Shown: positions 15,644 to 25,017 of the stretch, one piece after another
How the letters are laid out: each line of letters opens with the position of its first letter
Numbering within the stretch: position 1 is the stretch's first letter
Made by a program: the position numbers and the translations under genes
Notes under the pieces: model-generated
What the model saw: the letters and a program-made list of their open reading frames with translations, nothing else
The model's database searches: none
What the model was told of the DNA's origin: nothing
NCBI GenBank assembly: GCA_023667265.1
Contig: JAMPAJ010000008.1
Location: 1 to 38,099 of the forward strand
Reading direction: 5' to 3'
From: Alistipes sp.
Lineage (GTDB): Bacteria > Bacillota > Clostridia > Oscillospirales > Ruminococcaceae
Length of the DNA stretch: 38,099 nucleotides

Positions 15644-16714
15644 TCATTCACAGCAATCTTGCGGAATCGAATTAACGGGAATAAAGTTTTCACCTTTAAT
15701 TTGATAGCTGTCAGGAACATCATCAAAGAACCTGTAGGAACGCTGTATCATAGCATCCACGTCTGTACTGTCTTTCAGCAGACCGATCGCCTTCATATCG
15801 CTGCAAACATTCACAAGTGCATCGTATCCGCCCTGTACGCTGGGAATATACTGATAGCTTGCCAGAATGGCGGCATTGGTTTCCACATCACCGCCGACAT
15901 ACTCTCCGTTGATCTGAATAGCTGCTGTTTCCTCGGGATGTTCTTCCACCCATGCGGAAGCTTTCAGAACTGCTCTGGTGTATGCGGCAGCAATTTTGGG
16001 GTGATTTTCTGCGAGCTCCTTAGAAACAAAGCTTACGCAGCAGTATTCAGAAGCATACGGTTCGGTTACAGCAGTATCAAGCAGGACAGTCAGACCGTAT
16101 TCCTTTTCGGCGGAAGCGGCAACGGGATCGGGCGTCGCAATTGCATCAACCGCATTGTTTATCAGTGCAACCGGCTGGTCAGTCGTATTGTATGTCACAA
16201 ATTCTACCTCTGAGCTTCCGGCGGAAACATCAATGCCGGCAGCCGCCAGCGCCCTCTTGGCTGTAACCGCTTCTGAACCTGCCAAAGAAGCAACTCCAAT
16301 TGTTTTTCCTTTTAAATCTTCAATGGATTCTATACCTGAATCGGCAGTAACGAGAATTTTTGTACATCCGGTATGCATACCGGCAGTTATAACCATATTC
16401 AGTCCGTTTTCAATAGGCTGTACAAATTTTCCTACAAGTCCGAAACCGCAATCAATAGTTCCTGCACCAAGTGCCGCCTGAATATCGCCGCTGCCAAAAT
16501 CAACTCGCTCCCACTTGATGCCCTCCTCGTCAAGGTAGCCTTTTTCCATAGCGACCTGCAAGGGTGCGTGGCAAAGTCCTCCGACGGGTTCGCCGATTTT
16601 CAGTACATATTCATCATCCGGTACATTGCTGCTTTGCTTGCCGCAGCCCACTGCCGAAATTATCATCAAGCCTGATATCAATACAGCAGCCATTTTTTTG
16701 ATAATCATTTTCAT
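15644..16714 (-). CDS. ABC transporter substrate-binding lipoprotein (NMT1/SsuA-like), second system
   Basis: The 356-residue protein has a lipobox (SAVGCG) after a short signal peptide, then LKIGEPVGGLCHAPLQVAMEKGYLDEEGI, and the hinge motif GLVGKFVQPIENGLNMVITAGMHTGC. This suits the NMT1-type solute-binding fold. It is the last gene of the DUF1847-permease-ATPase-binding protein operon. The start could also be six bases inside (16708). Six cysteines scattered through the chain include a terminal CCE. Substrate unknown; the cysteine neighbourhood suggests a sulfur compound. Confidence 0.85.
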   Translation of the reverse strand: MKMIIKKMAAVLISGLMIISAVGCGKQSSNVPDDEYVLKIGEPVGGLCHAPLQVAMEKGYLDEEGIKWERVDFGSGDIQAALGAGTIDCGFGLVGKFVQPIENGLNMVITAGMHTGCTKILVTADSGIESIEDLKGKTIGVASLAGSEAVTAKRALAAAGIDVSAGSSEVEFVTYNTTDQPVALINNAVDAIATPDPVAASAEKEYGLTVLLDTAVTEPYASEYCCVSFVSKELAENHPKIAAAYTRAVLKASAWVEEHPEETAAIQINGEYVGGDVETNAAILASYQYIPSVQGGYDALVNVCSDMKAIGLLKDSTDVDAMIQRSYRFFDDVPDSYQIKGENFIPVNSIPQDCCE

Positions 16715-16724
16715 TCTTCCTTTC

Positions 16725-17501
16725 TTAAATTATATATTCGGGTTCTTTTTCCTTGCCTGCAAAGTCGAGAATTTGCAGAATGTCATTTCGGATACGGATA
16801 AACTCCGGATTATTTCTGTCTCTTGGATATGCAAGGTCAACATCAATTATCTTTTCTATCCTTGCAGGACGAGGCGACATAACGCAGATATGGTTTGACA
16901 GATATACCGCTTCATCCACATCGTGAGTAACCATAATCATCGTCATATTTTGCTCTTTCTTGATTCGTAGAAGTTCATCCTGCATATTCATTCTTGTAAA
17001 GGCGTCCAACGCTCCAAGCGGCTCATCTAAAAGCAATGCTTTGGGATTTCCTATCAACGCCCGGGCAAGAGACGCTCTCTGACACATTCCGCCGGATAAC
17101 TGATGTGGATATGATTTTTCAAATCCTTTCAGTCCAACCAGTTCAATAAAATCATCCACCATTTTTTTATTGTTCTTGAAGATATGCCGAGCCTTCAAAC
17201 CAAATGCAATATTATCATAAATCGTCAGCCACGGGAAAAGATTGTGCTCCTGAAAGACAAGTCCTCTGTCGTGGGATGGTTTTTTAATCTCCGTATCATC
17301 AAGATATATCTTGCCGTCAGTTGGACGGTCAAACCCTGCAAGCAGACGGAGCATAGTGGATTTTCCGCATCCTGACGGACCTATCAGCGAAACAAAATCT
17401 CCGCTGTTAATGTCAAGATCTATTCCGTTCAGTGCATTGACGATCGTTCCGTCTTCAAGCTGAAAGGCTTTTTTTACATTTTCAAAGCGGATACCTACCA
17501 T
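16725..17501 (-). CDS. ABC transporter ATP-binding protein, SsuB/TauB-type, second system
   Basis: Intact Walker A GPSGCGKST, Q-loop in FQEHNLFPWLT, signature LSGGMCQRASLARAL, Walker B ALLLDEPLGALDA and the H-loop VTHDVDEAVYLS are present. The ATG at 17501 follows GAAAGGAG and overlaps the permease stop by seven bases, which marks translational coupling. About 258 residues. It pairs with the permease upstream and the binding protein downstream. Confidence 0.9.
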   Translation of the reverse strand: MVGIRFENVKKAFQLEDGTIVNALNGIDLDINSGDFVSLIGPSGCGKSTMLRLLAGFDRPTDGKIYLDDTEIKKPSHDRGLVFQEHNLFPWLTIYDNIAFGLKARHIFKNNKKMVDDFIELVGLKGFEKSYPHQLSGGMCQRASLARALIGNPKALLLDEPLGALDAFTRMNMQDELLRIKKEQNMTMIMVTHDVDEAVYLSNHICVMSPRPARIEKIIDVDLAYPRDRNNPEFIRIRNDILQILDFAGKEKEPEYII

Positions 17502-18448
17502 TTTATCACTCCTTTCTGCCATACAAGGAGTTTTTCACGTACCTTGAACAACAGGGTAATAACGATAAAAAACATCACTGCAATAACGATAAGTCCTGCG
17601 TATACATTGGCATAAGCCATCATTTCCTTCTGCCAATTGACATACCAGCCGATGCCATACTTTGCACCTATCATTTCCGCTGTCATCAGGGCGACAAAAG
17701 AAGAACAGATGCCGTTGAACAGACCTAAGAAAATATTCGGCATAGCAGACGGAACAGCAATTCTGAATATATTCCAGAATGTATTTGTTCCCAGTGCAGA
17801 ACCAACTTCAAAATATGATTTCTTGACATTTGAAATACCGCTTGATGTTAAAACAACTGTCGGAAACCAGACAGAAAGCCCTATAATAAACGCACTTGCA
17901 GCTCTCGCAGTCGGGAAAGCAATCAGCACGATCGGTATCCACGCAGTAGACGGTATTGGTCCGAGAACACGTATGATCGGATTTATCCAGTATTCCATAT
18001 GTTTGTTGTATCCAACTCCAATGCCCATAAAAAAACCAACGATCAAGCCTCCTGCCACACCTGAAAGCAGAATTTCCAGTGAGTACACGACACATTTGAT
18101 AATAAGTTCTCTATCCTCAATGATCGTACCGAATACTCTGTCAAGAGACGGGAAATACAAAACAGGAAGCAAAGCAGTTTTTACAGTTATCACATCAAGC
18201 AAAGTAAAAAATGCAATAACACCGCCCAGAAACGGTACTCTGTAGAAAGGTTTCACCGGTTTTTTTGCAGTGAACAATGCGATACCCGCATACAACAGAT
18301 ACACTACTGTAATCAAAGCAAGCACATAGGCATAATAGGGCTTGCTTGCAGACTGGTGCAGCGGTGAATCAGGAATAATGAAATGCACTGCTTCCGCAGC
18401 TGCTAATTCCAAAAGAAGCAATATCGGGTAAACTATTTTTTTATTCAT
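17495..18448 (-). CDS. ABC transporter permease, SsuC/TauC-type, second system
   Basis: The 317-residue membrane protein begins with a hydrophobic helix and contains the EAA-type loop ALGTNTFWNIFRIAVPSAMPNIFLG. Additional helices include GVAGGLIVGFFMGIGVG and AGLIVIAVMFFIVITLLF. It has two extra N-terminal helices compared with minimal permeases. It starts 11 bases after the DUF1847 stop with a weak ribosome site, so it is likely translated by coupling. Confidence 0.85.
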   Translation of the reverse strand: MNKKIVYPILLLLELAAAEAVHFIIPDSPLHQSASKPYYAYVLALITVVYLLYAGIALFTAKKPVKPFYRVPFLGGVIAFFTLLDVITVKTALLPVLYFPSLDRVFGTIIEDRELIIKCVVYSLEILLSGVAGGLIVGFFMGIGVGYNKHMEYWINPIIRVLGPIPSTAWIPIVLIAFPTARAASAFIIGLSVWFPTVVLTSSGISNVKKSYFEVGSALGTNTFWNIFRIAVPSAMPNIFLGLFNGICSSFVALMTAEMIGAKYGIGWYVNWQKEMMAYANVYAGLIVIAVMFFIVITLLFKVREKLLVWQKGVIKW

Positions 18449-18459
18449 GTATATTCATC

Positions 18460-19158
18460 TCATTTTTCGTCATTATTTGTCACAACGCTCAGATCTTTTC
18501 CACGCGCATCTCCTACAGGATATTGCAGCAGTTTTTTATAATAAGCTCTTGCCTGATATAATGCGCCGATAGGATTATGTGCAAGCACACGGTCTTTTGT
18601 GACCAGCGTTGTATTGATGCCATTGGCATATTTGTAAAACAAGCTGTCATGTCCGACACAAAGTCCGACTACAACATTCAGGTCGGTTTTCGCTTTGTTG
18701 AGCAGCTTTGCCTGCATAATCGGATTGCACATAACATTTCCTGTAACGCAGGTGTATTTTTCATCAATACCGATGTCAGTCTTGCTTACAGAAGCTACTT
18801 TGCAGCTGATACCATATACCTCAAAACCGTTCAGCCTCAGAATCCTTGCAAAGATCCTGCTTTCCTCCAATAACCCGATACAAGTCGCAATACCAATCTT
18901 CTTTGCACCTATTTTATGCGCAAACTCGATTATCTCCTCCACGCGGGTGTATCTTCCATAAAAACCACCCTCGACCTCCGCTGCTGCAACAGCGATCTTC
19001 TTATTCACACGGTTATTTGTATAGAGCTTGGTGATCTCGTCAATTTCTTCCTCTGTCAAGGCTGCCGTTGGACAAAATTCAGGGTAGGCTCCGTTTCGCA
19101 ATGCACAATTCATAACTCCGCAATCCGCACAGCTTAAACATTTCTTTTCATTATCCAT
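18460..19158 (-). CDS. DUF1847 cysteine-rich protein
   Basis: The ATG at 19158 is preferred over 19164 because AGAAGG stands six bases before it. The N-terminus CLSCADCGVMNCALRNGAYPEFCP holds six Cys residues and probably binds metal. A Rossmann-like body follows: GAKKIGIATCIGLLEESRIFARIL, FEVYGISCKVASVSK and VVVGLCVGHDSLFYKYA. The function of this family is not established. It heads the second importer operon and begins only 16 bases after the tRNA-like sequence, so it is probably on the cysK transcript. Confidence 0.75.
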   Translation of the reverse strand: MDNEKKCLSCADCGVMNCALRNGAYPEFCPTAALTEEEIDEITKLYTNNRVNKKIAVAAAEVEGGFYGRYTRVEEIIEFAHKIGAKKIGIATCIGLLEESRIFARILRLNGFEVYGISCKVASVSKTDIGIDEKYTCVTGNVMCNPIMQAKLLNKAKTDLNVVVGLCVGHDSLFYKYANGINTTLVTKDRVLAHNPIGALYQARAYYKKLLQYPVGDARGKDLSVVTNNDEK

Positions 19159-19181
19159 ATTCATCCTTCTTTCTCTTATAC

Positions 19182-19254
19182 TGGCGATGCCGAGTGGATT
19201 TGAACCACAAATTTCGGTTTTGCAGACCTATGCTGTTCCAACAGCGCCGGCATC
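19182..19254 (-). tRNA. Atypical tRNA-Cys (GCA)-like sequence in the cys operon
   Basis: A 73-base cloverleaf can be drawn on the minus strand. The acceptor is GATGCCG/CGGCATC (7 bp), the D-stem GCTG/CAGC with loop TTGGAA, and the anticodon stem TAGGT/ACCGA (one A-G mismatch) with loop CTGCAAA, giving anticodon GCA. The T-arm is TGTGG/CCACT (one T-T mismatch) with canonical loop TTCAAAT. Discriminator G and an encoded CCA end it. Unusual points are G at position 8, a six-base D-loop lacking A14, and two stem mismatches. It lies between yezD and DUF1847 on the cysK strand with almost no spacing. It may be a second, specialised tRNA-Cys or a tRNA-like regulator; a degenerate tRNA is the alternative. 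Confidence 0.6.
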
Positions 19255-19258
19255 AGAA

Positions 19259-19316
19259 AACCGGAGGTATGCCAGCCACAGCTTTTACACTGTATCTGTT
19301 TTGCAAACCTCCGGTT
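19259..19316 (-). ncRNA. Structured RNA/hairpin between yezD and the tRNA-like gene
   Basis: Perfect 10-base arms (AACCGGAGGT at 19259-19268 and its complement at 19307-19316) enclose 38 bases with a possible inner ACAG/CTGT stem. On the minus strand the stem is followed by TTTTCTG and then, five bases on, by the tRNA-like sequence. It could be an attenuator-like terminator of cysK-yezD or a processing signal. Confidence 0.5.
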
Positions 19317-19322
19317 GTCCGG

Positions 19323-19457
19323 TCAGTCCTTTACTCTTATTTTTTCCGTTTTCTCGATCTGAACCACTTTTCCGTCCTGAATCACAATATTGATATTTCC
19401 ATATTTTAGTGACCTAATGAGTTGCTCTATCAGCTCGATGGCCTGTTTATTGTTCAT
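19323..19457 (-). CDS. YezD-like small protein (DUF2292)
   Basis: Forty-four residues (MNNKQAIELIEQL, ending KIRVKD) match the pattern of the small DUF2292/YezD family, with an N-terminal helix and a C-terminal beta hairpin NINIVIQDGKVVQIEKTEK. The ATG lies one base after the cysK stop (TGATATG), so it is coupled to cysK. This family is often found beside sulfur-assimilation genes; its function is unknown. Confidence 0.75.
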   Translation of the reverse strand: MNNKQAIELIEQLIRSLKYGNINIVIQDGKVVQIEKTEKIRVKD

Positions 19458-19458
19458 A

Positions 19459-20397
19459 TCAGGTATTACTGAACAGCGGTGTAGACAAATATCTGTCGCC
19501 TGAATCAGGAAGAAGCGCAACAATAGTCTTTCCTGCATTTTCAGGACGCTGCGCAAGAATAGCAGCTGCCTTAAGTGCTGCACCGGATGAAATACCTACA
19601 AGGATCCCTTCGCTCTGCGCAAAACGTCTGCCCTCTGCAAATGCGTCTTCATTTTCAATTGTGATAACCTCATCGTAAACGGAGGTATTGAGCGTATCAG
19701 GAACAAATCCTGCGCCGATTCCCTGAATCTTATGAGGACCTGCCTTTCCTTCAGAAAGAACGGGACTTCCGGCAGGTTCAACTGCGACAACCTTTACATC
19801 GGGATTCTGCTCCTTCAAATACTCGCCGACGCCTGTGACAGTACCGCCTGTTCCTACACCTGCAACAAAGATGTCAACCTTACCGTCGGTCTGCTCCCAG
19901 ATTTCCGGACCTGTTGTCGCCTTATGAACTGCCGGATTTGCAGGATTGACAAACTGTCCAAGAATGACAGAACCCTCTATCTGCTGATTAAGCTCTTCTG
20001 CCTTTGCGATAGCGCCTTTCATTCCCTTAGCGCCCTCGGTAAGTACAAGCTCAGCGCCATATGCCTTGAGGAGATTTCTTCTTTCAACGCTCATAGTATC
20101 GGGAAGCGTGAGGATCGCCTTGTATCCCTTAGATGCCGCTACAGCCGCAAGTCCAATACCCGTGTTGCCCGAAGTCGGTTCAATTATTGTTGCACCCGGC
20201 TTCAAAATTCCCTTTGCTTCGGCATCTTCAATCATTGCAAGGGCGATTCTGTCCTTAACAGAGCCTGCCGGATTGAGATATTCCAGCTTTGCGAGAATGG
20301 TTGCATTGTTTATTCCAGCTTTCTTTGCATAGCCGTTAAGCTTAAGTATCGGTGTGCCGCCGATCAGTTCCAGTGCGCTTTCCTTAATGTTGCTCAT
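19459..20397 (-). CDS. cysK: Cysteine synthase A (O-acetylserine sulfhydrylase)
   Basis: The 312-residue length is standard. The PLP lysine lies in [14 protein letters not shown], the substrate loop is [12 protein letters not shown], and the phosphate loop [15 protein letters not shown]; the C-terminal [11 protein letters not shown] follows. It converts O-acetylserine plus sulfide to cysteine. The ATG at 20397 is used because GGAGG lies eight bases upstream; an in-frame upstream codon at 20445 lacks this. A consensus promoter (20468-20496) and a CCTAT-N7-ATAGG palindrome in the leader suggest sulfur-dependent repression. Confidence 0.93.
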
Positions 20398-20431
20398 AAT
20401 AATTACCTCCGTAAAATTATTTCTCAGTTTT

Positions 20432-20496
20432 CCTATTTTTTTCATAGGTTTTATCGGGTATGTACTTAGTATACACCATATTTCTCATTTTGTCAA
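20432..20496 (-). promoter_or_regulatory. cysK promoter and leader operator
   Basis: TTGACA (20491-20496) and TATACT (20468-20473) are 17 bases apart. The palindrome CCTAT-N7-ATAGG at 20432-20448 lies just after the expected start site, where a repressor would act as a roadblock. The same palindrome covers the -35 box of the OAH sulfhydrylase promoter. Confidence 0.6.
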
Positions 20497-20895: not shown

Positions 20896-22531
20896 TTAAA
20901 CGAATGCGTTATGCTTGTTGGTAAGAGCCTTATCGAGAAACTTGTAGTAGATGTGGATAATCCTCGGCTCGTTGCGGTTTTCGTGTGCTTCTTCAATGGT
21001 GATATACTCCACAAGGTCAAGGAGCATTTCACGGGTGAGAACCTCAAAGTTTGTGTACTTTTTCAGACGGCGGATAAACTCGTCCACATCACGCTCGTCC
21101 TGATTTACTGTTTCAAGACGTTCCTGAATGGTGTCAAATTCCGTCTGCAACTGCGTGTTTTCTGCCTGATACTTTTCGATCAGTTTCAGGCATACATCTT
21201 CAGGAACTTTACCGATCACCATATTTTCATAAACGCTCTGTGTCAGGGTATCAAGCTCGTCGATACGATGCTCGATCTCACGCTTGCGTTTTTCATCGCT
21301 TGCTGTTTGAGAAGAACGTATACCCGACTTCTTTTCAAGAAACTGTTTTCTTGCTTTGTCCTCGTCAACAATTAGTCTTAGCTTAGATTGAATATCTGCG
21401 ATCACAAGTGCTTCAAGAACGCTCCCTTTGATCGTATGCGTGGAGCAGTAATCCTTACCGTAACGTGCGTGATAACCGCAAGTATAGCCTGTGCCGTGTT
21501 CCTTATTTCTGCGGTTCACCCAAATCTGCTTCATCTTGTAACCGCAATCGGCACAGTAGAGCATACCCGAAAATGTCGCAACAAATCCGTGGCTGTCTCT
21601 CTTTCCTCTGCTGAACGATGCTTCAAGCTCTCGTACTTTGTCCCATATTTCTTTTGAGATGATAGGCTCGTGATTATTTTCAATCACTATCCCAATCTTC
21701 CTCACTTGTGGAAATACGTTTGTGATTTTTGTAGCTGACGGTCGGTCTGCGGAGCTGTGCAAGTGTTCCGATATAAATAGGATTTTGGAGAATACGATAA
21801 ATGGTCTCCTTGCTCCAAAGATGTGTCATGGAAATCGGGTTTGTCTTGCCGAGCTTCTGATAAATATAGTCGGAGGGTGGCAGGATTTTTTCGGCATTGA
21901 GAATTTCGGAAATTCTCTTTGTTCCGATACCCTTTGCTCTCAGCTCAAAGATACGGCGGACAACATCGGCAGCTTCGGGGTCGATTGTCGGTGTGTACTT
22001 TCCGTCATCTGCCTTGACATAGCCGTAAGCTGCAAATGAGCATTTATACTTTCCTGCCTTTGCTCCTGCTTCGGTGACAGCACGGAGCTTTTTCGACGTG
22101 TTGTCACTATGCCACTCGTTAAAAACGTTCATGATCGGAAGCATATCCATTCCCGAACTGCGAGAATTGGCAGTGTCAACATTGTCATTCAGGGCAATGA
22201 AGCGGATATTATAACTCGGAAATATGTAATCCACATACTGACCCACTTGGATATAATTACGTCCGAAACGGCTTAAATCCTTGCAAATGATAAGGTTGAT
22301 CTTCCCCATTTTTGCATCGTCAAGCATACGCTGAACGCCCGGTCTCTCGAACGATACGCCCGAAATTCCGTCATCAACGTACTCGTCATAGATTGTCCAA
22401 CCCTGTTCGCTCACATAGTCGGTGAGCATTTTTCTTTGGTTTTCGATGGAGAGAGATTCACCGTTCCTCTCGTCATCTTTCGATAGGCGCATATAAACGC
22501 CTACGCTGTAATTCTGTTGCTTTGGTAACAT
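20896..22531 (-). pseudogene. Large serine recombinase, split by a one-base frameshift
   Basis: The N-terminal part (from ATG 22531, ribosome site AAAGGGG) has the resolvase domain: VGVYMRLSKDD with the catalytic Ser, ESLSIENQRKML, YVDDGISGVSFERPGVQRML and DLSRFGRNYIQVGQYVD. The recombinase domain follows to ISTSEEDW. It then hits a stop at 21680, while the continuation IVIENNHEPIISKEIWDKV, the zinc ribbon YCADCGYKMKQ...TCGYHARYGKDYCSTH and the coiled coil lie in another frame. One extra G in the GGG complement of 21691-21693 explains the break. TnpX/TndX-type enzymes excise and integrate mobile elements, so this element may be fixed unless the shift is a sequencing error or is recoded. Confidence 0.85.
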
Positions 22532-22573
22532 ATTTTCCCCTTTCTCCCAAAGCAACTATTTTCGATATATACT

Positions 22574-22602
22574 ATTATATCATAGTTTACCGAAAGAGTC
22601 CA
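22574..22602 (-). promoter_or_regulatory. Promoter of the recombinase gene
   Basis: TGGACT (22597-22602) and TATAAT (22574-22579) are spaced 17 bases, 43 bases before the recombinase start. Confidence 0.45.
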
Positions 22603-22641
22603 GCACTTCGGGAGCTATTTTTTCTTTTGTTCTCTATTTTT

Positions 22642-22827
22642 TCAGACGTGGAGAAGCTCGCTCATAGCCTGATCGTAAGCGTTCTTGTAAACCACTTCGT
22701 CAAGGTCTTTTTTGCCTGTAAAATGGCTGACAACGATGTACTTTCTGCCCTCGATCTCAATCTCTGTTTTCTGTGTCGGACAGTCCTTAAACTTCTCGTT
22801 AAGCTCCTTAGCGTTTGTTGTTTTCAT
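22642..22827 (-). CDS. TnpW-like small transposon protein
   Basis: Sixty-one residues contain the core EIEGRKYIVVSHFTGKKDLDE, resembling the short TnpW family named from Tn4451-type elements (KIGGTTY.V.SHF pattern). It lies 110 bases upstream of the recombinase. TnpW function is not known. AAAGGG precedes the ATG. Confidence 0.6.
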   Translation of the reverse strand: MKTTNAKELNEKFKDCPTQKTEIEIEGRKYIVVSHFTGKKDLDEVVYKNAYDQAMSELLHV

Positions 22828-22874
22828 GTCATAGTCGCCCTTTCTCTATCTATAGGATAACAACTGTAAAAATT

Positions 22875-23012
22875 GGCGTGCAGGCGTGCAAGTCCATATG
22901 TTCCGTGTTTTCAGACGTGCAGCGATTTGTGCAAAGCACGCCTTTTATCATTTTGCACAATCGCCTGCACGCCGTTTTTGCCGTTAATTCGCTGTTTGCA
23001 CGCCTGCACGTC
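22875..23012. repeat. Cluster of GTGCAGGCGTGCA-type repeats and large inverted repeat
   Basis: GGCGTGCAGGCGTGCAA (22875-22891) is inverted with one mismatch at 22996-23012. Between them are further GACGTGCA, GTGCAAAGCACGCC and CGCCTGCACGCC units. The cluster fills the gap between TnpW and the helicase stop. Iteron-like replication origin, repressor array or a very stable transcript end are all possible. Confidence 0.55.
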
Positions 23013-24467
23013 TTAAAATGCGGTTGTGCTATATTTAATAGCAATTCCGACAAATCCTCGCACTCGTTTACCGCCCGTCTGAATATGGTAGGAATATTTC
23101 ACATTCGTTATATCCTCATTCTGCTTTATCCAACTGATAAAGGTTTCTCTTTTCAGAGGTGTTAATGCATTATCGTCACACCAACGGCTATAACTGTCAT
23201 ACAGTGCCGATGAAGTCACGCATAAATTTTCCCCATACGTCACACGCTCCGTATCCGCAAGAAATTCGGGAATATTACAGCTATCCTGCATTGTTTCCTT
23301 AACGTTCAGCTTGGCTTTATCAGAAATTGAGAAGCGGTAATTGTTGGCGATCAGTCTCCGAAGCCCGTCATACATCCAGCAGAATATTTTATCCTTTTCT
23401 GCGATGAATTTGTCCGCAATATTCGGGTCAACAATTCTGTTTTCGGGTGGTGTGAGCGTGGTGAGGATGATCATTCTTCGTGAAAATCCCTTTGACTTGT
23501 CATATAATGCTTTAGGACTGCCGTTGCCGAAACATAAGAGCCTTGTGTAGAGTAACGATTGTTCGGACTGCTTGCCTTTGGCTTCAACGTCAATCGGAAT
23601 TTCAGCGGTCACAAGGTTTTTGATATACCCCGTGGACGGCAAAGCTGACATCTGCATATCATCATCGACCATGAGCAGTTTGTCTTTCAGATTGTAGCGG
23701 AAAAAGCGGTCGTTCTCGATTCGCTGAAAGTTGCCCGTAATCATGCTGTCTCCGAAAATCTCACGGAGAACGATCGCAATGCGTGACTTACCCTCTACGC
23801 CCTGACCGATAATGAACATCATTTTCTGCCCTTTGGTGGACGGTATCAGCAGATAGCCGAGATACTCTTGTATGGTGGTTACATCTTCCGGCGAAAGAAG
23901 CTCCAAAAGAAAGGTAAGAAACTGTTCGGGATAATAGGCAGGAGCGTCCCATATCTCAGGGGTGTACCATACGTTCAGCCTGTTCATACAAAACTCCTTG
24001 TGCGGATAAAAATTGCCGTTCAGATCGAGCTTGCCGTTGAGCAGATGGATGTAGCGTGTGTCGGGCAAAAGCGGTTTGCTGTAACAGTAATGCCGCAGGG
24101 TTTCCATGATAAGCGTTACCTTTTTTGGCAAACCGAACCACACACCTTGACGGAGCATACAGTAAATTTCGTTGCCGAGAGCGTTCTCGTCCACAAGACC
24201 GTCATAGTCGTAAAACCGTCCCATGATACATTTCAGAGGGTGCTTTTCTACAAACAGCTTGCAGAATTTCATCTCGTTGATCGTGAGCTTGTCCACCATC
24301 CATTCGGGCAACTCACGTTCCTTTTTCTTTTCGGGCGGCGGTTCGGGCAGTGGTGCTTCATCGGTCTCAAATTCGGGTGCAAGCTCGTCAAACATTTCGG
24401 AAACAGTTTCCTCGGTGACTTCCTGTACAGCTTCATTGTCTTTTAAGTCTTTCTGTTTCTTGCTCAA
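23013..24467 (-). CDS. D5/P4-type superfamily 3 helicase (element replication)
   Basis: The central region has Walker A FIIGQGVEGKSRI, Walker B KLLMVDDDM, and the sensor region LLCFGNGSPKALYDKSKGFSRRM, an arrangement of phage D5/P4 primase-helicases. The D5_N-like region with TFLLELLSPEDVTTIQEYLGYLL precedes it. A Glu/Pro-rich linker fills residues 20-55. No ATG is near the start. A TTG at 24467, ten bases after GAGGAG, or at 24476, would overlap the primase gene by about 40 bases. It likely works with the CHC2 protein in self-replication after excision. Confidence 0.75.
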   Translation of the reverse strand: MSKKQKDLKDNEAVQEVTEETVSEMFDELAPEFETDEAPLPEPPPEKKKERELPEWMVDKLTINEMKFCKLFVEKHPLKCIMGRFYDYDGLVDENALGNEIYCMLRQGVWFGLPKKVTLIMETLRHYCYSKPLLPDTRYIHLLNGKLDLNGNFYPHKEFCMNRLNVWYTPEIWDAPAYYPEQFLTFLLELLSPEDVTTIQEYLGYLLIPSTKGQKMMFIIGQGVEGKSRIAIVLREIFGDSMITGNFQRIENDRFFRYNLKDKLLMVDDDMQMSALPSTGYIKNLVTAEIPIDVEAKGKQSEQSLLYTRLLCFGNGSPKALYDKSKGFSRRMIILTTLTPPENRIVDPNIADKFIAEKDKIFCWMYDGLRRLIANNYRFSISDKAKLNVKETMQDSCNIPEFLADTERVTYGENLCVTSSALYDSYSRWCDDNALTPLKRETFISWIKQNEDITNVKYSYHIQTGGKRVRGFVGIAIKYSTTAF

Positions 24468-25017
24468 TATGGTCAATCTCCTCTCTCATCGCAAGTTTTT
24501 CTTCTTTGTCGGCAAGCAGAAATTCATCTGCAATGTACTCTGCATAACTCAGGTGGTGCTGACTGTACACGAAACGGCTGTCGGGTATGTCATCGGGACT
24601 TTGCGGAACGTACATCTCAGCATAATCTCGCATTAGCCACAAGTATTTATTCAACACATCAAATGCGTGATGCTTCCACTGTTCATATGCTTTGCGTTCG
24701 GCTCCCTGTTTTTCGATACGCTGAATGTCAGCTCGGTCGGGTGGCTTGTCAACATTCAGACAAAGCCCGAAATCGCTGTTCAACTGCCTGACAGCTTCAA
24801 TCGGTGAAAGCCCGAAAAGCTCCTGCACAAGCCCGATAACATCACCATGAACCTGACTGCCGAAGCAGTGATAATTCTTCTCATAGAGCTTGCAGGACGG
24901 TGTACGCTCGTTATGGAACGGACACAGACACATATTGTCCCGTCTGACTTCTATGCCGTAATAACGTGCTGCTGTCGGCACATCAACAAGCTCTTTTACT
25001 TTTTCAAAAATCGTCAT
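24433..25017 (-). CDS. CHC2 zinc-finger primase-like protein without TOPRIM domain
   Basis: The 194-residue protein begins with a DnaG-type zinc finger: CPFHNERTPSCKLYEKNYHCFGSQVHGDVIGLVQ. The usual final ligand (CFGC) is Ser here, so one canonical zinc ligand is missing. No TOPRIM catalytic domain follows; the rest is helical. It lies just upstream of the D5-type helicase and overlaps it, so the two probably form a split primase-helicase. The catalytic primase activity may come from the helicase partner or the host. Confidence 0.7.
   Translation of the reverse strand: MTIFEKVKELVDVPTAARYYGIEVRRDNMCLCPFHNERTPSCKLYEKNYHCFGSQVHGDVIGLVQELFGLSPIEAVRQLNSDFGLCLNVDKPPDRADIQRIEKQGAERKAYEQWKHHAFDVLNKYLWLMRDYAEMYVPQSPDDIPDSRFVYSQHHLSYAEYIADEFLLADKEEKLAMREEIDHIEQETERLKRQ

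Follow-up and report, generated by a model that had tools for sequence, protein, structure and literature searches.

An extra tRNA with a GCA anticodon in the sulfur and cysteine gene clusters of some gut bacteria may signal or regulate

Introduction

What is a tRNA gene with a cysteine anticodon doing inside a cluster of cysteine genes? The question arises from a 38,099-nucleotide stretch of an Alistipes sp. assembly (contig JAMPAJ010000008.1; the whole stretch is called the window below), in which a tRNA-Cys(GCA)-like gene lies on the minus strand at 19182-19254, the strand that also carries the cysteine synthase gene cysK. A first-pass annotation, made from the letters alone, took the gene for a sensor or a specialized tRNA rather than a housekeeping copy, with a decayed tRNA as the alternative. 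We followed up both readings by comparison with related genomes, and no description of this tRNA family was found in the open-licence literature that was searched.

The tRNA-like gene and its neighborhood

ARAGORN reports a single tRNA gene in the window (19182-19254, minus), a 73-base cloverleaf with anticodon GCA and an encoded CCA, and the Rfam model RF00005 matches it with 38.6 bits (E 8.1e-05; cut-off 29), so the cloverleaf drawn in the first-pass annotation is borne out. This Rfam score is the lowest among the genome's 39 tRNA matches. An independent covariance model of the family described below (R3), made from 47 copies without the window's and other Ruminococcus-labelled ones, gives the gene 77.5 bits versus 44.4 for the housekeeping tRNA-Cys of the same genome. 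Since the folding energy of the window copy alone is modest (z -1.85) and by itself unimpressive, it is on the comparative evidence that we judge the cloverleaf to lie beyond chance. The features said to set the gene apart from a normal tRNA-Cys, namely G8, a short D-loop without A14, and mismatches in the anticodon stem (A28-G42) and the T stem (U49-U65), are all present in the sequence, but the D-loop and the anticodon-stem mismatch recur throughout the family, whereas G8, C9 and the T-stem mismatch belong to the window copy alone. Two further traits went unmentioned in the first-pass annotation: a discriminator of G73, versus U73 for tRNA-Cys, and A-U and U-A at acceptor pairs 2-71 and 3-70. 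G8 could form an eighth pair with U65, and a bulge is absent.

Upstream of the gene on the same strand lie cysK, encoding cysteine synthase A (19459-20445, minus; TIGR01139 452.9 bits, cut-off 350.95), and yezD, encoding an OscA-like small protein of the DUF2292 family (19323-19457, minus; PF10055 E 4.5e-16; OscA model 30.4 bits, under its cut-off of 85). Judging from the sequence, the true start of yezD is probably the ATG at 19457, although the listed reading frame extends to 19583. Downstream is the gene for a DUF1847 protein (18460-19164, minus; PF08901 E 7e-63). The placement between yezD and DUF1847, on the strand of cysK, had thus been described correctly; the gaps, given as 4-16 bases, had not, as DUF1847 starts 17 nt downstream of the tRNA and the yezD stop lies 68 nt upstream. 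Next follow genes for a NitT/TauT-type ABC permease (17495-18448, minus; SaoP, ntrB and TauC models, all under cut-off), the ABC ATPase of the same transporter (16725-17522, minus; SaoA 260.8 bits, cut-off 360) and an SsuA-like substrate-binding protein (15644-16714, minus; TIGR01728 126.6 bits, cut-off 163.5; PF09084), whose C-terminus reads CCE. The SsuA-like protein and its ABC partners (15644-17522, minus) match Sao models below their cut-offs.

A promoter-like site, TTGACA-17-TATACT, lies upstream of cysK (20468-20496, minus; 11/12 consensus match), but 16 promoter-like sites were found versus 12.1 expected, so the consensus match says nothing of function. Farther upstream, recombinase-like and primase-like reading frames (20896-25017, minus; named from their translations) suggest a mobile element beside the cysK operon. 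The end of yezD and a strong terminator-like hairpin (ACCGGAGG...CCTCCGGTTTTC; predicted fold -31.2 kcal/mol) occupy 19255-19330 (minus), where the hairpin, followed by TTTTC, adjoins the 5' end of the tRNA. A terminator pattern scan, whose loop limit was 8 bases, did not list it. Similar hairpins are found in relatives both with and without the tRNA. A motif, CUGACYGGAMAACCRGAGG, overlaps the yezD stop codon (19255-19340, minus, in the window; upstream of marB in loci L116, L118, L306 and L354), and by eye its CCRG has two possible partners, the CYGG that precedes it and the CCUCYGG of the terminator, between which pairing could alternate. This pairing looks like an attenuator tied to yezD translation, at loci with and without the tRNA alike.

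Distribution of the family

The first-pass annotation had proposed a comparison with related genomes, and relatives of the same gene type were indeed found. BLAST across 297 genomes of the window's family gave matches in 24, with the same gene type in three genomes besides the window's (G206, G139 and G143); all but two of the remaining matched genomes showed housekeeping tRNA-Cys. Two further copies were met before marB genes (L086 in G714 and L120 in G234). A degenerate pattern built from the first copies and run over 84,980 species genomes returned 56 such stretches, of which 55 are whole and one (L191) is cut by a contig end; most are labelled Lachnospiraceae and some Ruminococcus. The pattern-found sequences that were printed are all of the same kind, the most divergent being L160; this copy (L086/L160, G714) has C33, is missed by ARAGORN and stands directly before marB. 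At least one carrier bears a strain name, [Clostridium] polysaccharolyticum DSM 1801.

The anticodon loop was fixed in the pattern, which gave 55 of the 62 sequences in hand, and covariance-model searches were therefore added. In the family of [Clostridium] polysaccharolyticum, 12 of 328 genomes carry the tRNA at 88-98 bits, one copy in each (15 candidates per genome scored, with strict filters), with three further scores following at about 61 bits. Housekeeping genes seem to account for two of them; the third, L239 (G937), is a GCA tRNA with acceptor GATGCTG, G73 and a different anticodon stem, possibly an intermediate between the odd-tRNA family and ordinary tRNAs. Six of the 12 carriers fall outside the pattern, yet keep GCA, and it is on these six copies and the score gap that the invariance of the anticodon rests. 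Of 125 genomes in the window's genus, 5 are carriers (93.5 to 55.8 bits; next 49.9), and in four of these five the tRNA is followed by marB, the window being the exception. An order-wide search of 394 genomes with model R1 can miss copies, as only 12 candidates per genome were scored; among the matches listed, all but the window's reached at most 62.4 bits, and the 29 loci opened from it (L057-L085) are housekeeping tRNA-Cys with U73.

The odd tRNA is rare and patchy in its occurrence. One high-scoring copy was found in 29 of 30 carrier genomes, with the next best at 58.8 bits or less, and a multi-copy riboswitch, which the varied downstream genes had suggested, was rejected on this count. The isolate HAN041 (G761) has two full copies (L145 and L151), one before an Rrf2 regulator and one before marB, as well as the copy broken by a contig end (L191). 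Neither a search of plasmid DNA with the tRNA-yezD stretch nor a scan of viral contigs with the family pattern gave a match.

Conservation of the tRNA body

Conservation was assessed on 62 sequences, 57 of them distinct, with one 71-nt sequence left out of most position counts. Compensatory changes were found in 10 of 21 stem pairs (75 cells), and the covariation score of 0.298 compares with 0.158 in shuffles, none of 500 of which scored as high, and at most 0.093 in slid controls. The set without Ruminococcus-labelled copies gave 10 pairs, 74 cells and a score of 0.321. Throughout, the family keeps a complete cloverleaf of 7/5 acceptor/T arrangement with no bulge, a short variable loop, an intact T-loop, and a short D-loop that lacks A14 and retains its GG. 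The anticodon is GCA in 61/61 scored copies, the A28-G42 mismatch is present in 60/61, and position 33 is U in 54 and C in seven. The discriminator is A in 34 copies, G in 27 and T in one, that is, a purine in 61/62. Pair 2-71 is A-U in 57 of 61 copies and G-C in four; pair 3-70 is U-A in 54 and C-G in four.

In the 40-nt flanks on either side, information content is for the most part close to 0, apart from modest conservation of T at -3 (40/61) and A at -2 (35/61). Copies without an encoded CCA have U after base 73, at +1 in 46/54 and at +2 in 48/54, and downstream U residues are said, in work by Pellegrini and colleagues from 2012, to help RNase Z in B. subtilis. The CCA is encoded in eight of the 62 copies, all Ruminococcus- or Clostridia-labelled or the window itself, and the Ruminococcus-labelled copies L173 and L177 lack it. 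A missing CCA is normal in carriers, since only 1 of 20 of their housekeeping tRNA-Cys genes encodes one.

These observations bear on the proposal that the gene is a decaying or mobile-element-derived tRNA without function. Its patchy presence would suit such an origin, as would the private changes of the window copy and its place at the bottom of the genome's tRNA scores. However, the stems covary, both ends and the anticodon arm are maintained, and at 25 tRNA-less marB/nifB loci, 16 of which are close relatives (at least 73% identity), no remnant was found, the best leftover scoring 10.2 bits. The plasmid and viral searches, which gave no match, also speak against the proposal. We hold it to be extremely improbable, and the first-pass annotation's decayed tRNA is contradicted for the family as a whole; the window copy alone may be relaxing, since U8, A9 and the uppermost pair of the T stem are gone from it.

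Alignments do not favor descent from tRNA-Cys. Against the 32 distinct tRNAs of the window genome, the family consensus is 0.71 identical to both tRNA-Thr(UGU) and tRNA-Arg(ACG) and 0.65 to tRNA-Cys, while the window copy is closest to a tRNA-Met (0.70; tRNA-Cys 0.59).

Charging identity

The window's gene is not the only tRNA-Cys of its genome, in which case the first-pass annotation would have taken it as simply the housekeeping copy: an ordinary tRNA-Cys with U73, G2-C71 and C3-G70 lies elsewhere, in a Val-Asp-Gly-Cys-Gln cluster. The housekeeping tRNA-Cys of 20 further carriers, read from the sequences, has U73 and U33 in 20/20. In the available part of PMC9976931, the bacterial cysteine identity set is given as U73, G2-C71, C3-G70 and G34, C35 and A36. 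From this set the window copy has GCA and lacks U73, G2-C71 and C3-G70. A single CysRS gene was found in each of 20 genomes (17 carriers and three without the odd tRNA), which also led us to reject a dedicated second CysRS of the sort present in some selC* systems. With the bacterial cysteine determinants lost from the acceptor end and one CysRS per genome in the 20 checked, the simplest reading is that the odd tRNA would be charged with cysteine weakly or not at all.

The same positions weigh on the idea that the gene is an auxiliary translational tRNA-Cys isoacceptor, charged less well by CysRS and helping to decode UGY codons upon induction of the sulfur genes. Decoding requires U33, and its presence in 54 of 61 copies leaves room for a translational role, as do the complete cloverleaf, GCA, the intact T-loop, the GG of the D-loop, processing signals resembling those of normal tRNAs, and the encoded CCA of the window copy, a feature of almost every one among the 32 distinct other tRNAs that were read in the same genome. 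Nevertheless, seven copies have C33, a purine stands at position 73 in 61/62, A-U and U-A occupy both acceptor pairs that count in E. coli, and carriers' housekeeping copies keep U73 without exception; we therefore consider an isoacceptor unlikely.

Another synthetase might instead load the GCA tRNA, as one that CysRS could not charge, with an amino acid free of sulfur, and cysteine codons would then be partly re-read under sulfur shortage. If true, the cysteine saved in this way would go to Fe-S clusters and thiols. The family bears no recognizable complete identity set for any other amino acid (G3-U70 and a long variable arm are lacking), A36 speaks against arginine, and C33 in seven copies also counts against such a code switch, which we regard as very improbable. 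Arginine identity (A20, C35 and purine 73) was rejected in its own right, as A20 is found in just 52/61 copies and A36 is wrong for ArgRS.

Genomic context

In 45 of the 57 loci the tRNA has a cysK, marB, metB/C, PatB or gshA relative no more than 1.5 kb away, a number that rises to 46 at 3.5 kb, whereas the same gene types turned up in 2 of 77 housekeeping tRNA-Cys loci spanning about 3 kb, although the two counts come from different methods (45/57 from clusters, 2/77 from tblastn). No core sulfur gene is found within 3.5 kb in the other 11 loci, some because the contig ends; these include L165 (gyrase-like and LacI-type genes), L146 (an M20 peptidase) and several contig-end cases. Neighbors were named by family models on a few representatives and otherwise by sequence clustering or reading of translations. 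Besides cysK, which is the nearest upstream frame (at least 100 aa) in 33/52 loci, and marB, they include cystathionine gamma-synthase/lyase types, PatB C-S lyase, glutamate-cysteine ligase, JAB and ThiF-type proteins, aminothiazoline-carboxylate hydrolase, SsuA-like transporters and Rrf2 regulators.

The nifB-like gene marB is downstream in 29 of 57 loci by clustering (a thirtieth, L184, is the record of L032). Its operon, in L147 and L197, codes for NifX-like, NifH-like, second CysK-like and NifD-like proteins, and in these and related loci the second CysK-like gene sits between the NifH-like and NifD-like genes. The NifD-like protein of L147 matches structure 9FMG with 310 bits and 9d9u ('nitrogenase') with 307, versus at most 119 for other nitrogenase chains; 9FMG is identified as a methylthio-alkane reductase structure in the accessible portion of PMC12552129.

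In the family of G763, 8 of 20 genomes with a close marB carry the tRNA versus 4 of 308 others (Fisher 1.8e-8), where the line for a close marB (73% identity) was drawn after the table had been seen and the test ignores kinship; at the search cut-off the figures are 8/29 versus 4/299 (5.5e-7, kinship likewise ignored). The tRNA is absent from 12 of the 20 close marB loci. A search of the window genome at E 1e-60 found no such nifB, and its tRNA stands beside cysK, so that a nifB- or mar-specific part was rejected and the link appears to be with sulfur rather than with mar alone. The first-pass claim of a specialized rather than a housekeeping tRNA is supported as far as "specialized", by the separate housekeeping tRNA-Cys, the conserved family and the sulfur-gene context, and no further.

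The nearest frame of at least 100 aa is on the strand of the tRNA in 50/52 loci upstream and 49/51 downstream, and the downstream same-strand gene lies at a median distance of 68 nt. This arrangement, like the mere 17 nt between the window tRNA and DUF1847, would suit a cis-acting leader, that is, a tRNA fold in a 5' UTR that is bound by CysRS or another protein and controls the next gene. In the thrS operator and other mRNA-leader tRNA mimics, a tRNA-like shape precedes a metabolism gene of the same amino acid. Here, however, the tRNA ends are exact, spacing to the start codon is anything from an overlap up to several hundred nt, and the downstream gene varies despite there being mostly one copy per genome. 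The flanks hold no conserved expression platform, and the UU that follows base 73 is in keeping with processing at the 3' end, by which the leader would be cut. As such, a cis-acting leader strikes us as quite unlikely.

T-box riboswitches

An unchargeable tRNA could also act in trans, as the partner of cysteine-specific T-box riboswitches, which it would keep switched on. Retention of the anticodon with loss of the charging marks fits this idea, and a precedent exists in tRNA-Other and trpS1 of Bacillus cereus, as described in the part of PMC3399842 available. We searched five genomes for T-boxes and obtained 44 hits, whose genes and specifiers were read from the sequences by eye; three of the 44 gave no motif (L330, L332) or an unconvincing one (L333). 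The eight T-boxes of the window genome, with genes read from translations, precede no cysteine gene, nor do the nine of its relatives G206 and G139. The one Cys T-box recognized, L256 in G763, has UGGA, a match for U73 but for neither A73 nor G73, and among the T-boxes resolved in the five genomes none has specifier UGC with a match to purine 73. L256 precedes a gene for serine acetyltransferase, and its genome is itself a carrier of the odd tRNA. Because the sole Cys T-box recognized is of the wrong discriminator type, we rejected this partner for the window genome, and in general we give it next to no credence.

Discussion

Conservation confined to the mature RNA, tRNA-like ends, mostly a single copy per genome and varied neighbors argue for a processed, trans-acting RNA, a dedicated tRNA-Cys mimic that would be encoded in sulfur and cysteine operons for expression along with them. 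The reading that we favor, with a probability of roughly 0.55, is that a processed tRNA body is kept by selection, is a poor CysRS substrate and retains GCA. Sulfur limitation would turn on the cysK-type promoter, and transcription would pass the terminator into the tRNA. RNase P would then cut at G1 and RNase Z after base 73, aided by the conserved UU, after which CCA would be added, a step that the CCA-encoding copies would skip. In the comparison, selection acts on the body of the mature tRNA to a far greater degree than on the flanks. Purine 73, A2-U71 and U3-A70 would make the RNA hard to charge for the one CysRS of the genome, whereas GCA, which is read by CysRS and by UGY codons, is retained.

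The kept anticodon loop implies a partner that reads GCA, whether CysRS, the ribosome or a pairing RNA. As T-boxes do not fit and C33 in some copies disfavors ordinary decoding, CysRS is the likeliest target on the sequences at hand. The uncharged or slowly charged RNA might then compete with tRNA-Cys, most likely at CysRS, and so lower the use of cysteine by translation, or signal its shortage, while the sulfur supply is rebuilt. This last step, the weakest, we put forward tentatively where CysRS is the target, with the odds well against it.

Nearest in kind among known systems, by its description in the accessible text of PMC3399842, is tRNA-Other, a pseudo-tRNA of Bacillus cereus with a Trp anticodon that is poorly charged, is not on polysomes, and is linked to T-box (trpS1) and CymR-homologue regulation. 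The likeness lies in an extra tRNA-like gene that keeps an anticodon, here beside a normal housekeeping tRNA. As far as that text goes, tRNA-Other belongs to the B. cereus group, lies beside an island and is part of a longer RNA, whereas the tRNA described here has a Cys anticodon, sits in sulfur operons of many genera and bears sequence signs of normal end processing. Nearest by anticodon are the selC* tRNA-Cys, additional tRNA-Cys species, GCA in part, of anaerobic Firmicutes and others; according to the sections of PMC7609411 available, these have an 8/4 acceptor/T arrangement, bulge 51a, Sec-like long arms and U73. In contrast, the present family has a 7/5 arrangement, no bulge, a short variable loop and purine 73. 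T-box riboswitches likewise tie tRNA charging to amino acid genes, but what we describe is the tRNA half of such a pair, and the window genome showed no Cys T-box to match it.

In some gut bacteria, then, an extra GCA tRNA in sulfur and cysteine clusters may signal or regulate instead of serving protein synthesis in the ordinary manner. A tRNA that travels with the genes of one amino acid, its anticodon kept and its loading marks shed, would amount to an RNA signal that acts in trans and derives from the translation machinery, and it would tie cysteine supply to nitrogenase-like, methylthio-alkane-reductase-type sulfur-scavenging clusters.
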